Positions 10,016-19,958 of a DNA stretch of 64,000 nucleotides are shown piece by piece. Location: the NCBI GenBank assembly GCA_002591725.1, contig NJAL01000006.1:1-64000 (forward strand). The letters run 5' to 3'. This DNA is from Candidatus Didemnitutus mandela. GTDB lineage: Bacteria; Verrucomicrobiota; Verrucomicrobiia; Opitutales; Opitutaceae. The notes below the pieces were generated by a model. It was not told the origin of the DNA. It made no database searches and saw nothing but the letters and a program-made list of their open reading frames with translations. The position numbers were made by a program, and so were the translations under genes. Every line of letters begins with the position of its first letter. Positions within the stretch are counted from its first letter, which is position 1.

Positions 10016-11365
10016 TTACGTTACCTTTCTCTCGGCAAGAGGCAACATTACCCCTCGCCGAAAGAGTGTCACTTGCCCGGAGCTTGAGGAAACGGCGATC
10101 GCGATGCAATCGGCAGCCACGGAGATCGCCGCTGCCGCGGCATGCCGCGAGCCCAACCCCCCCGGCAAAGCATGGTCATAGTCAGAAGCTTGAATAAGCG
10201 CGCCAGCCGCCTCCAACGTCCCATCACCACGGATGATGAACGCTCCATCGATCGAGGAAAACTCCTTCACAGTTTCGTCCATGAAAGGGTTAAGGATGTT
10301 GCGGTCTTGCGCCCTATAGCCGTGAAACGGATTCAACACAAGCGGTTTGCTCATTCGGTCCACGCGATCGGCATCGCCCACCACAAAAAAACATCCTATT
10401 GGCCGGCCTTCCCTGCCCTCGACAGCTAGCTCGGTTGCCACACTAATCACCCGCTCGAGCACCTCCGGGTTGACGTCCCGAGGTAGTAGGTCCGCATGGC
10501 CGATCAGAAACGTTTGAAATTCCTTTTCGATATCGACCACGACCAGCGTGTCAAACTGGTTGCTAGCCGCGATGCCGCCAACGCAACACACACGATCCGT
10601 GAAAACGAGAATTCCGCGCATGAGGCCGACTAGCACTGCGCTGCGCAATTGCGCCATACGCTGATTCGAAAACGACCGCACTTGAATCGTTTCGGCGTAG
10701 TGTCCGGGATGGTCCTCTGCCTCGGCCAGATTGCGGGAAACAAGAATAGTTTTCAGCCCCGCCCTCCATTTCGGAGCCAAAAAGTTTCCGGTGAACGTAT
10801 CGCCAAAGACCATCAATACCCTGCAACTAGTGCGCAAGGCGACACTTTCAGCCTGACGGAGGACGATGCGGTTGACGAGGTTTTCGACCGCCGGAACGAA
10901 CTTCGGCGCAATGCCACCGAAACCAGAATGCAGATGCTCATAAAGCGTGTCAAGGTCAGGCGCCCGGACGAGGCTTTGGACGAATGACTGCTCCTTGAAC
11001 AAATTCGCAAGAGCCCCTAGCACTCGCAGGTAATCGCGAGTTTTATCGCCGGCAATCAACATGATGATCAACCGCACCGGATCGTTCTCGATCGCACCGT
11101 CGTAGCGAATGCCGTAGTGACTGCGCCCCACCGCAATCACGTATCGACGGTTCATCTTCGTTCGCATATGCGGCAGCGCCACGCCGAGTCCGAGATATGT
11201 CGTCATGGTGCTTTCCCGGCGCAGGAGTCTTTTGATCAGCGACTCTTTGTCGAGATCAGATAGCCGGTCGAGAGTTAGGTTCACGAGTTCTTCGAGGGCC
11301 GGCTCCATTTCGCCGCTCTCGAGGCCCACGACCCGTCCACGTATGAGGTATTTGTCGAGCCGCAT
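10016..11365 (-). CDS. PTS EIIA domain fused to a diadenylate cyclase (DisA_N/DAC) domain
   Basis: 449 residues. Residues about 1-150 resemble a fructose/mannitol-type EIIA domain, with the phospho-acceptor region GLGVALPHMRTK and candidate His66. A middle part (about 150-330) has alternating beta and helix character. The C-terminal part is a DAC domain: GREGRPIGCFFVVGD, VLNPFHGY, then the catalytic DGA motif in DGAFIIRGDG (373-382) and the second motif as GLGSRHAAAAA (403-413). Most c-di-AMP synthases read RHR at this point; here it is Arg407-His408-Ala409. The enzyme class condenses two ATP to c-di-AMP, which controls potassium and osmotic balance. No transmembrane segment is seen, so it is probably cytosolic. 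The fusion suggests phosphorylation-dependent control of c-di-AMP synthesis; this is inference. Neighbours are rpmG and nuoA, with no PTS genes. Confidence 0.85.
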   Translation of the reverse strand: MRLDKYLIRGRVVGLESGEMEPALEELVNLTLDRLSDLDKESLIKRLLRRESTMTTYLGLGVALPHMRTKMNRRYVIAVGRSHYGIRYDGAIENDPVRLIIMLIAGDKTRDYLRVLGALANLFKEQSFVQSLVRAPDLDTLYEHLHSGFGGIAPKFVPAVENLVNRIVLRQAESVALRTSCRVLMVFGDTFTGNFLAPKWRAGLKTILVSRNLAEAEDHPGHYAETIQVRSFSNQRMAQLRSAVLVGLMRGILVFTDRVCCVGGIAASNQFDTLVVVDIEKEFQTFLIGHADLLPRDVNPEVLERVISVATELAVEGREGRPIGCFFVVGDADRVDRMSKPLVLNPFHGYRAQDRNILNPFMDETVKEFSSIDGAFIIRGDGTLEAAGALIQASDYDHALPGGLGSRHAAAAAISVAADCIAIAVSSSSGQVTLFRRGVMLPLAERKVT

Positions 11366-11455: not shown

Positions 11456-11848
11456 TCACTTTTCCCAGTCGAGCGCACCTTTTTTCACTTCGTAGAAAAG
11501 ACCTAGCACGAGCACGCCGAGGAAAAACAACATCGGTGTTAGGATTGCGATGTGGTTCGCGAAAAAATCGCGATAGACGAACGACCACGGAATAAGAAAA
11601 ACAACCTCTATATCGAAGAGAATGAAAAGCATCGCAGTGACATAGAACTTGACCGAAAATTTTGTATGCATACCGAAATCGGACGGTACACCACATTCGT
11701 AAGGAGTGTCTTTGACCTTGTTTTTCTGCGCACGCTGCCCCAAAAAATAGCTACTTGCAATCAAGCACAAGGTGATGATTAGTGTAAGTACAATCTGAAG
11801 GAAAATCGGAAAATAAGCCAAACAAGGCACGATCGAGATCGTTCGCAT
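11456..11848 (-). CDS. nuoA: NADH-quinone oxidoreductase subunit A, orphan
   Basis: 130 residues with three membrane helices, near 10-32, 65-87 and 98-118. The family signature DTPYECGVPSD (47-57) is present; the Cys lies in the loop that moves during complex I turnover. FILFDIEVVFLIPW is the usual second helix with its conserved acidic residues. NuoA is part of the membrane arm of the proton-pumping NADH dehydrogenase. No nuoB-N gene is adjacent; the upstream neighbour is a DUF362 pseudogene. The start at ATG 11848 is a reasonable choice. Confidence 0.93.
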   Translation of the reverse strand: MRTISIVPCLAYFPIFLQIVLTLIITLCLIASSYFLGQRAQKNKVKDTPYECGVPSDFGMHTKFSVKFYVTAMLFILFDIEVVFLIPWSFVYRDFFANHIAILTPMLFFLGVLVLGLFYEVKKGALDWEK

Positions 11849-17491: not shown

Positions 17492-19768
17492 TCATGCCTC
17501 CATCCAAGTGCGAAACGTCTTAATCTGGTCTGGCGTACCTAGAACAAGCACGTCATCGTTTTCAATCAGACGCTCTTCGCCCGTCGGATTCAGAAGCCGC
17601 AGGCCGCCGCGATTGATTCCCGCCAATTGCACTCCGCAGCGGCGCGTTGGTGCGAGTTCGGCCAGGGTGCAGCCGGAAAGCTTGCATCCCAGCGGAATCC
17701 ACACCTTCTCCATCAACACTTCGTCGAAATTCGAAGCCGGAATCTCGCCGGAAACCTGTTTCAAAAATGCTTTTCCTGCGTTCATCTGCTTCGTATCGCC
17801 AAGCAGTAGCACACGATCACGGGGATAGAGCGCCGTGTCCGGTGATGGGGTCGCAATCATCACGCCCTGGCGCTCGATACCAGCGACCGTACAGCCGAAT
17901 TTTGCTCGCAGTCCCAGCTCGCCCAGCGTCTGTCCGCTGTGCATCGCCAAGTCTCGTAGCACGCACTCTGTCAACCCTAGTTGCCACTCGCCGTGCGGGG
18001 CCAGCCACGGCGCGGTCGTTGCTGAGAGCTCCTTTTCGTTTTGCGTCAACCGCTGCTGCAGCTCCACCTCCAAAACACTGTGCCAATAAACCAGTTTGCG
18101 ACGCATCAACAGCAGTGCCGCCAGCACCAACACCAAAAACAGTAGTGGTATCCAAGGTTCGCAATTACCCAACGGTGGCAGGGAGCTCAGCCAGACAAAA
18201 ATCAACACCACCGAGACAGTCTTGATACCGCTTTCTATAACGGGCTTGATGCGGGTCGCATGTGTCATACCCGCACTTCCCAGCTCGGAATAGATAAGCG
18301 CCAGAGCACCAACGTTGCGCCAAATTGCAACGAGCGGGATGAGCATGGCAACCGTGAGCAGACTCCCAAAAATCAGTTCCGGCGCCCGCGGAAACAGTTT
18401 GTGGGGGAAAAACTGCCGCGACGATTGCAACAACGGCTCAGCAAACGTCAATAGGCCTGTCACAAATAACACCTCCATGGCGATCTGGATCATGCGCTTA
18501 CGGCTCATCCGCCATAGGAGGCTGCGTTGCTGCCGCTGAAAAAGCCGTTCGAGCCAGTCGCGATACTGCTCCAGCCAGTTCGCCAGCCAGCGCGGTATCC
18601 AGTGTTCCACACATTCGCCAGCTATCGGCGAAATACGCACCATGAAGGGCGCCGCCAGCGTCGACAGCAGCGATACGATTACCGCGATCGCCTGAAGATC
18701 CGCACCTATCACGCGCGCTGCGACGCCCATTTGCGCGATAATAAAAGAAAACTCCCCCAACGTCGTCACCGCCATACCCACGCGCACCGCCTCTCGCACA
18801 ACGGCTCCAGAAATCAACATGCCTGTTGTAACGGCAATAGTGCGTCCGACCAGACACACAACTCCCAGCAGCAGCACCAGCCACCACAGGTGCACAGCCA
18901 GTTTCAAATCGATCATCATGCCAATCGCCACGAAAAAGACTGCGCTGAACAGATCACGCATTCCCTCGAATGCACGATCAGCCTGAATCCTATGCGGTGT
19001 CTCCGCCACGATCGCTCCGAGCAAAAATGCACCGAGCGCCAGCGAAAAGCCCGCTCGCTCAGCCATTACAGCTAGCATAAAAAGCAGTCCGGCCGTTACG
19101 ATCGCCAGTAGTTCCTCATCAGCGTTGACGGAAATTTTTTTCAGCAACCATGGGACCACCAGCAAACCACCCACGCCCGCCATAACCACAAATGCGCCCA
19201 GCAGACCCAGCGTCTGTCCCATCGAGGTGTCCTGCGCACCGGCTAGAGAGGTCAGCGAATTCAAAAGCACCAGCATAAAGATAGCTACGATGTCTTCGAG
19301 CACCGACACACCCATCGCAGTCTGGCCAAATTTTTCATGCATCGCGTCGACATCCTGCAGAACCTTGCCAATGATCGAAGACGACGACACCATGAACATC
19401 GCAGCTAAAAACACCGTTTTCGTGTGTGTCCAGCCCAACACCACGCCAGTAGAACGCCCAATCTGGTACATAAAAAACGCCCCCGTAAACGTGGCCACGA
19501 GCAAACCGCCACCCAGCCCCCGAATACGACGCAGACTGAGTTTCAGTCCGATAGAAAACATCAGGAAGACCAGGCCAATCTTCGCCAGAGTTTCAATTTG
19601 TCCGACATCCGCCACCAGCGCAAAGGGAAACGTATGCGGCCCAATCAGCACGCCCGCAAGCAAAAAGCCAACGACCGATGACAGCCCTAGCCGCTGGCAA
19701 GCCCAGCCCACCAAGCCGGCCACAACCATCACCACCGCTAGATCTTGGATAAAGTCAATCCCTTGCAT
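17492..19768 (-). CDS. KefB/CPA2-type cation:proton antiporter with two TrkA-C domains
   Basis: About 758 residues from ATG 19768. The first 390 residues form a CPA2 exchanger domain of 10-12 helices, with GFLLAGVLIGPHTFPF, GLVFLMFSIGLKLSLRR and SVLEDIVAIFML, where the acidic pair of the ion site lies. A linker with further helices follows (about 460-570). Two TrkA-C (RCK_C) domains end the protein: TLGELGLRAKFGCTVAGIER and SGCTLAELAPTRRCGVQLAG. No Rossmann TrkA-N domain is seen. RCK_C domains can bind c-di-AMP or other ligands, which makes a link to the cyclase at 10016 possible but unproven. The gene is divergent from mreB. Confidence 0.9.
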   Translation of the reverse strand: MQGIDFIQDLAVVMVVAGLVGWACQRLGLSSVVGFLLAGVLIGPHTFPFALVADVGQIETLAKIGLVFLMFSIGLKLSLRRIRGLGGGLLVATFTGAFFMYQIGRSTGVVLGWTHTKTVFLAAMFMVSSSSIIGKVLQDVDAMHEKFGQTAMGVSVLEDIVAIFMLVLLNSLTSLAGAQDTSMGQTLGLLGAFVVMAGVGGLLVVPWLLKKISVNADEELLAIVTAGLLFMLAVMAERAGFSLALGAFLLGAIVAETPHRIQADRAFEGMRDLFSAVFFVAIGMMIDLKLAVHLWWLVLLLGVVCLVGRTIAVTTGMLISGAVVREAVRVGMAVTTLGEFSFIIAQMGVAARVIGADLQAIAVIVSLLSTLAAPFMVRISPIAGECVEHWIPRWLANWLEQYRDWLERLFQRQQRSLLWRMSRKRMIQIAMEVLFVTGLLTFAEPLLQSSRQFFPHKLFPRAPELIFGSLLTVAMLIPLVAIWRNVGALALIYSELGSAGMTHATRIKPVIESGIKTVSVVLIFVWLSSLPPLGNCEPWIPLLFLVLVLAALLLMRRKLVYWHSVLEVELQQRLTQNEKELSATTAPWLAPHGEWQLGLTECVLRDLAMHSGQTLGELGLRAKFGCTVAGIERQGVMIATPSPDTALYPRDRVLLLGDTKQMNAGKAFLKQVSGEIPASNFDEVLMEKVWIPLGCKLSGCTLAELAPTRRCGVQLAGINRGGLRLLNPTGEERLIENDDVLVLGTPDQIKTFRTWMEA

Positions 19769-19958
19769 GGGGAAATGTCGCATCGCGACCGTCGAGGCAC
19801 ACATCCATACATCAAACACACCAAGCCCATGTTCTGAAAGGTTTCATAGTCTTATAGTCTTTTCTTTTGCCAGCGCAAATCACCGAAAACCAACGAGGTT
19901 GACTTTGACAACTTCCCTTAAGCGTGACTTTGATTCTGAAACTATAGTCAAGCATCTC

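Follow-up and report, generated by a model that had tools for sequence, protein, structure and literature searches.

The nitrogen-type PTS and c-di-AMP are each known, independently of one another, to regulate potassium in bacteria. One class of c-di-AMP synthases, DacD, reportedly goes back to a paper by Corrigan and Gruendling from 2013, in which the EIIA-DacZ_P-DAC layout discussed here may already have been drawn. According to the part of PMC6741144 that was available, the representatives of the class come from Lacunisphaera, Puniceicoccaceae, Coraliomargarita, a Verrucomicrobia and an Opitutae bacterium; in NCBI taxonomy the genera Lacunisphaera and Coraliomargarita both fall within Opitutia, a class. 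Opitutaceae and other Opitutae/Verrucomicrobia are the source of the closest named records of the protein described below, and because the two sets of taxa agree we call it DacD, an assignment made by taxa and not by sequences. Biochemical activity data were not found in the accessible portions of the literature on DacD, and no EIIA-DAC protein was described in the titles and abstract openings of the mostly open-access c-di-AMP literature on EIIA, PTS, PtsN, PTS-Ntr, DacD and Verrucomicrobia.

The protein is encoded by Candidatus Didemnitutus mandela, in a stretch of 64,000 nucleotides (the window) that was analysed as a whole. We consider that it is probably a soluble, DacD-class diadenylate cyclase with an EIIA-Ntr-like input and a K+ output: in its relatives an EIIA domain phosphorylated by EI and HPr would modulate the cyclase, and in Ca. 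D. mandela itself that input would have been lost.

Domain layout and predicted structure

The dacD-like gene occupies positions 10016-11365 of the minus strand as a single intact frame of 449 codons with an ATG start; frame 1 of the plus strand is interrupted by numerous stops across the same interval. Pfam divides the 449-aa product into a PTS_EIIA_2 domain (PF00359) at residues 20-146 (10928..11308; E 1.2e-23; 84.1 bits against a curated cut-off of 27), a DacZ_P domain (PF21755) at residues 164-285 (10511..10876; E 3e-19) and a DAC domain (PF02457) at residues 314-439 (10049..10426; E 1.8e-19; 70 bits against a curated cut-off of 27), all on the minus strand. All three score well over their cut-offs, and the EIIA_2 and DAC scores lie so far above theirs that chance matches are excluded. 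A first-pass annotation, made from the letters of the DNA, had described an EIIA domain fused to a DAC domain in one intact protein and had proposed searches with these two profiles; the fusion and both of its named parts are confirmed, but that two-domain view overlooked DacZ_P, which is a probable sensor domain according to Pfam. The candidate phospho-histidine, His66 (codon 11168..11170, minus strand), is where that annotation had placed it and aligns with the His of PtsN; the residue is His in 100/100 distinct close homologues and in 109/142 homologues across the order. This protein is the sole DAC match in its genome assembly (2.17 Mb, 10 contigs, completeness 74.5%).

We modelled the protein with AlphaFold2 together with 81 locus homologues, drawn from 82 diversity-picked members after exclusion of one, L194, whose EIIA part is degenerate. 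The model has a mean pLDDT of 85 and a pTM of 0.55, values that suggest well-modelled individual domains and, given the pTM, an uncertain packing of those domains. In a Foldseek search of the PDB with this model the best matches were the EIIA-Ntr structures 2a0j and 1a6j (TM by target 0.86 and 0.88), followed by more EIIA chains; CdaA, DacA, DisA and CdaM appeared lower, the isolated DAC chains among the displayed matches having a TM by target of 0.55-0.69. A profile search of solved chains gave no convincing match over DacZ_P, where the only match, 3dm9_B (E 0.95), was at chance level.

The protein matches the NCBIfam models for DacZ, fruA, PtsN and CdaA, each under its cut-off. EIIA-Ntr (PtsN) provides the best structural matches and the aligned His, but here the EIIA is fused to a cyclase and scores 40.8 bits with TIGR01419 against a cut-off of 138.7. 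The archaeal DacZ/CdaZ proteins share the DAC domain and about 70 residues preceding it, which align over 192 columns with 99.6% probability in a profile comparison with haloarchaeal DacZ; they differ in being without EIIA and in having DACZ_N as their N-terminal Pfam match where the window protein has DacZ_P, and the DacZ equivalog NF041371 gives the window protein 108.6 bits against a cut-off of 430. CdaA/DacA, DisA and CdaM match the DAC domain in structure, and CdaA/DacA have the DGA motif in common with it, but these enzymes and CdaS differ from the window protein in their accessory domains.

Distribution and catalytic motifs

Homologues at E 1e-30 or better were found in 193/223 genomes of the order, that of Ca. 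D. mandela included, and in 77/83 of its genera. Among the 252 confirmed loci, the 80 named ones that were retained share 59-75% identity with the protein over almost its full length, and their titles refer to Opitutaceae, Opitutae/Opitutia and Verrucomicrobia(ota), with genera that include Opitutus, Candidatus Didemnitutus and Rariglobus. The genomes searched as relatives contained a match in 52/57 cases (own genome included), one of them with EIIA only (G054) and another split over two contigs (G047). All 82 diversity-picked members have EIIA_2, all 82 have DAC and 80 have DacZ_P. A chance or mis-assembled fusion is ruled out by the match in 77/83 genera and by the presence of EIIA_2 and DAC in 82/82 picked members. 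Judged by its homologues, the EIIA-DacZ_P-DAC protein is typical of its order. DacZ_P was detected in 46/288 genomes of the phylum, 41 of these 46 belonging to the order, and an EIIA-like front with the His was recognised by eye in three genomes of one family outside it (L167-L169).

The protein persists in order genomes as small as 0.7-1.1 Mb. DacZ_P-DAC proteins lacking a detectable EIIA were seen at loci L191, L193, L195-L198, L202 and L203, in genomes of 0.7-1.0 Mb; a search of the loci of these eight EIIA-less genomes for a remnant of EIIA gave nothing convincing (best E 0.092). Ser or Tyr stands at the His66 site in homologues L164, L165, L161, L224-L227 and L249 (groups f4, f16 and f19), in spite of EI and HPr matches in their genomes.

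The DAC domain contains the motif D373-G374-A375 (10241..10249, minus strand), as the first-pass annotation had noted, and a second motif, R407-H408-A409 (10139..10147, minus strand), in which Ala replaces the last residue of the RHR of CdaA/DacA. According to the sections that were available of papers including PMC3328451 and PMC4568413, DisA and CdaS have RHR as well. The departure from RHR had been read as a possible sign of degeneration, and a catalytically dead DAC domain that serves as a sensor of ATP or of c-di-AMP would be the corresponding explanation. We read the motifs in 145 homologues from the 193 genomes with a match, a non-random set for which EI-less genomes were chosen deliberately. 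The second motif is RHA in 120, RHS in 11, RHT in 6, RHM in 4, RHV in 2 and RHG in 1, with 1 unreadable; the first is DGA in 134, DGG in 6, DGS in 2 and DGC in 2, again with 1 unreadable. Thus no readable sequence has Arg as the third residue, whereas D-G and R-H are retained in 142/142 scored homologues, including the eight proteins that are without EIIA. In 100 distinct close homologues, the window protein among them, His66, D373, G374, R407, H408 and A409 are invariant and A375 is kept in 98. RHA is indeed present at 407-409, but it is the state of the family, on the evidence of these alignments, and not decay.

The mutational literature bears on both sides of this question. Changing RHR to AAA abolishes the activity of Mtb DacA (a DisA orthologue) and of Bt CdaS, as described in the available parts of PMC3328451 and PMC4568413, and this favours a dead domain, as does the lack of a tested homologue from the order in the portions of the literature that were available; those mutants alter all three residues, which is not the loss of the third Arg alone. 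Mtb DacA tolerates replacement of the G in DGA without loss of activity (same papers, same parts), so the conservation of DGA is a blunt test of activity. In S. aureus DacA the contacts with a substrate analogue are made by the D, the G and the Thr that precedes RHR (PMC6368335, in the part available). The equivalent residue here is Ser406, a position at which the order has Thr in 66, Ser in 44 and Ala in 32 of 142 homologues; a hydroxyl is therefore available in 110/142 and missing in 32/142. Two Haladaptatus plasmid proteins annotated as DacZ have the motif GLGTRHH, in which the third residue, as in the window protein, is not Arg. The DacZ of H. volcanii is reported, in the accessible part of PMC6741144, to be active with Mn only. 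A dead domain also sits poorly with the position of this protein as the only DAC match in its genome. Since the third Arg is missing from the entire family, a dead enzyme is ruled out as the main reading of the RHA motif and the sensor explanation is demoted to an improbable one; on balance, we infer that an active enzyme is far more probable than a dead one. In an active DacD, two ATP-loaded DAC domains would meet and produce c-di-AMP.

The PTS in the order and in Ca. D. mandela

The first-pass annotation had proposed that PTS phosphate flow might set the level of c-di-AMP. EI, scored as a profile match to the EI N-domain, which is no proof of an intact gene, was matched in 171/223 genomes of the order, a number that includes the broken copy of Ca. 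D. mandela, and HPr in 180/223, again with Ca. D. mandela included. We scored the His66 site against EI in 142 genomes, leaving out G442 (both pieces at contig ends), G047 (the split copy) and G458 (broken frame), and counting Ca. D. mandela as EI-negative. EI and His occurred together in 95 genomes, EI without His in 8, His without EI in 14 and neither in 25, so that His66 is retained in 95/103 genomes with an EI match versus 14/39 without an intact EI (Fisher p 1.7e-11, kinship ignored). The EIIA domain as a whole is gone from 8 genomes, four in f80 and four in f81 (completeness 68-93%), and 8/8 are without an EI match. Completeness of 74.5% for Ca. D. mandela and of 68-93% for the EIIA-less genomes weakens every one of these absences.

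Comparisons that take account of kinship do not bear out the raw association, and their pairs are too few to decide either way. Six independent pairs on the tree differ in EI, and among these His differs in 0.9 on average (0.7 in the same direction, 0.2 in the opposite one); in eight independent pairs that differ in His, EI differs in the same direction in 0.9 and in the opposite direction in 0.1. A pairs test with under 6 deciding pairs is unable to reach 0.05.

These observations allow an explanation in which the protein is an active c-di-AMP synthase whose EIIA is purely structural, for dimerisation or the docking of a partner, and has never been a phospho-switch. The replacement of the His by Tyr or Ser in 8 genomes that bear both EI and HPr (G348, G371, G338, G455, G039, G359, G195 and G220) is in keeping with a structural role, as is the retention of His in 14 genomes without an intact EI (13 with no EI match, and Ca. 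D. mandela); the pairs on the tree lend the EI-His link no support, although they are without the power to exclude one. The frequencies of His retention given above, uncorrected for kinship, and the restriction of EIIA loss to genomes without EI both speak against it, and we regard a purely structural EIIA as unlikely. For most of the order the data are compatible with a phospho-switch, short of proof. In relatives that have EI and HPr, His66 would be phosphorylated and the EIIA domain would then modulate the cyclase. A more specific version of this proposal can be put forward only tentatively: across the order the EI-HPr phosphate on His66 would directly set the cyclase, and in the smallest genomes the loss of EI would precede that of the His or of the entire EIIA domain, with the cyclase retained. 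The genome of Ca. D. mandela would be just past the first of these steps.

The PTS of Ca. D. mandela is damaged. The first-pass annotation had said that the window contains no other PTS gene, and the genome searches for EI and HPr agree with this; their only matches sit on other contigs, and a search for a further EIIA by similarity to the window protein gave one match in the organism's own genome. The EI (ptsI) gene is a pseudogene (L154, 8236-9969, contig C9): the single EI match covers 72 positions within a 105-aa frame, and a tblastn search with the EI of a relative (G005) located the remainder as fragments in three different frames, one of them interrupted by an in-frame stop. Same-genus relatives have one EI match each in 12/12 cases, in frames of 530-643 aa. 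HPr is an open frame (L155, 4970-5221, contig C2) that keeps the His motif and is about 11 C-terminal residues shorter than its counterparts in relatives. The genome check for ptsI and ptsH that had been proposed therefore gives a mixed answer, an open if shortened HPr and a broken EI. The break is unlikely to come from sequencing error in general, because the cyclase gene, dnaG, rpoD and the antiporter gene described below are intact within the window; poor sequence quality confined to this part of contig C9 could also account for it.

With a frameshifted pseudogene as the only EI match and a shortened HPr, PEP-driven control is probably dead in this organism, and PEP-dependent phosphorylation of His66 has probably been lost. 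PTS control, as proposed earlier, thus becomes unlikely in Ca. D. mandela, while most genomes of the order have an EI match. Since EI is broken, EIIA is probably stuck in the unphosphorylated form, and the cyclase would work at a fixed setting or on the input of DacZ_P alone.

His66 persists in the window copy although EI is broken. At columns that are otherwise invariant this copy has private changes in 15/87 positions of EIIA, 9/68 of DacZ_P and 9/99 of DAC, a higher number in every domain than in any of the 11 relatives from the same genus, in a count that is uncorrected for branch length and in which close relatives mask each other's changes. One of these relatives (L093) has 10/82, 2/61 and 3/93 in the same three domains, so it is likewise fastest in EIIA and a faster EIIA is not peculiar to the window copy. 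Such changes, with the EI pseudogene and the shortened HPr, could mean that the gene is being lost and that its frame, no longer functional, has by chance so far escaped the decay of the genome. The full 449-aa frame with its catalytic positions retained, a share of private changes that is lowest in DAC, and the persistence of the protein in the 0.7-1.1 Mb genomes all argue to the contrary, and we hold this explanation to be very improbable. A cyclase that remains active after the probable loss of its PTS input is the reading that we prefer.

Neighbourhood and candidate potassium output

A NuoA-like gene (11456..11848, minus strand; Pfam Oxidored_q4, E 1.1e-29) lies directly upstream of the cyclase gene. 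It is found just upstream and on the same strand at 78/80 named loci and at 29/30 further loci from the phylum scan, and at 1/30 of a set of mostly small-genome loci (21/30 with upstream room) and 0/4 outside the order.

The TrkA_C (RCK_C) domain binds c-di-AMP in other bacteria. A candidate c-di-AMP target is present about 6 kb from the cyclase gene, where a CPA2/KefB-like cation:proton antiporter of 775 aa with two TrkA_C domains is encoded (17492..19819, minus strand); it is the only TrkA_C protein detected in the genome. In 5/9 same-genus relatives (G003, G005, G007, G008 and G009) a TrkA_C protein and the cyclase are encoded on one contig, about 7-13 kb apart; in the other 4/9 the two are on different contigs or no cyclase gene was detected (G002). 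The title of PMC12453120 names the binding of c-di-AMP by TrkA, and EIIA-Ntr acts on K+ systems in proteobacteria according to the available parts of PMC6488665 and PMC9239096.

With regard to turnover, a 333-aa, NrnA-like DHH-DHHA1 protein encoded about 4 kb beyond the window (L292, 594-1595, contig C7; 94 bits, cut-off 350) may hydrolyse c-di-AMP or pApA. A PgpH-type 7TM-7TMR_HD phosphodiesterase gave no match in 10/10 genomes of the genus, that of Ca. D. mandela included, and 7TM-7TMR_HD was matched in 4/4 genomes from other families; the window has no c-di-AMP riboswitch at gathering score.

Taken together these genes suggest an attractive route from the PTS through c-di-AMP to K+, every step of which we infer: PEP or nitrogen status would set the level of c-di-AMP, this would act on RCK_C transporters and they would adjust K+ balance. 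A built-in PTS receiver, if true, would give a c-di-AMP synthase a direct input from the PEP/nitrogen state of the cell. Lineages of the order in which EI, the His or the EIIA domain has been lost naturally offer a ready comparison set. If the proposal is correct, two systems of K+ control that are usually studied in different bacteria would be joined in one protein.
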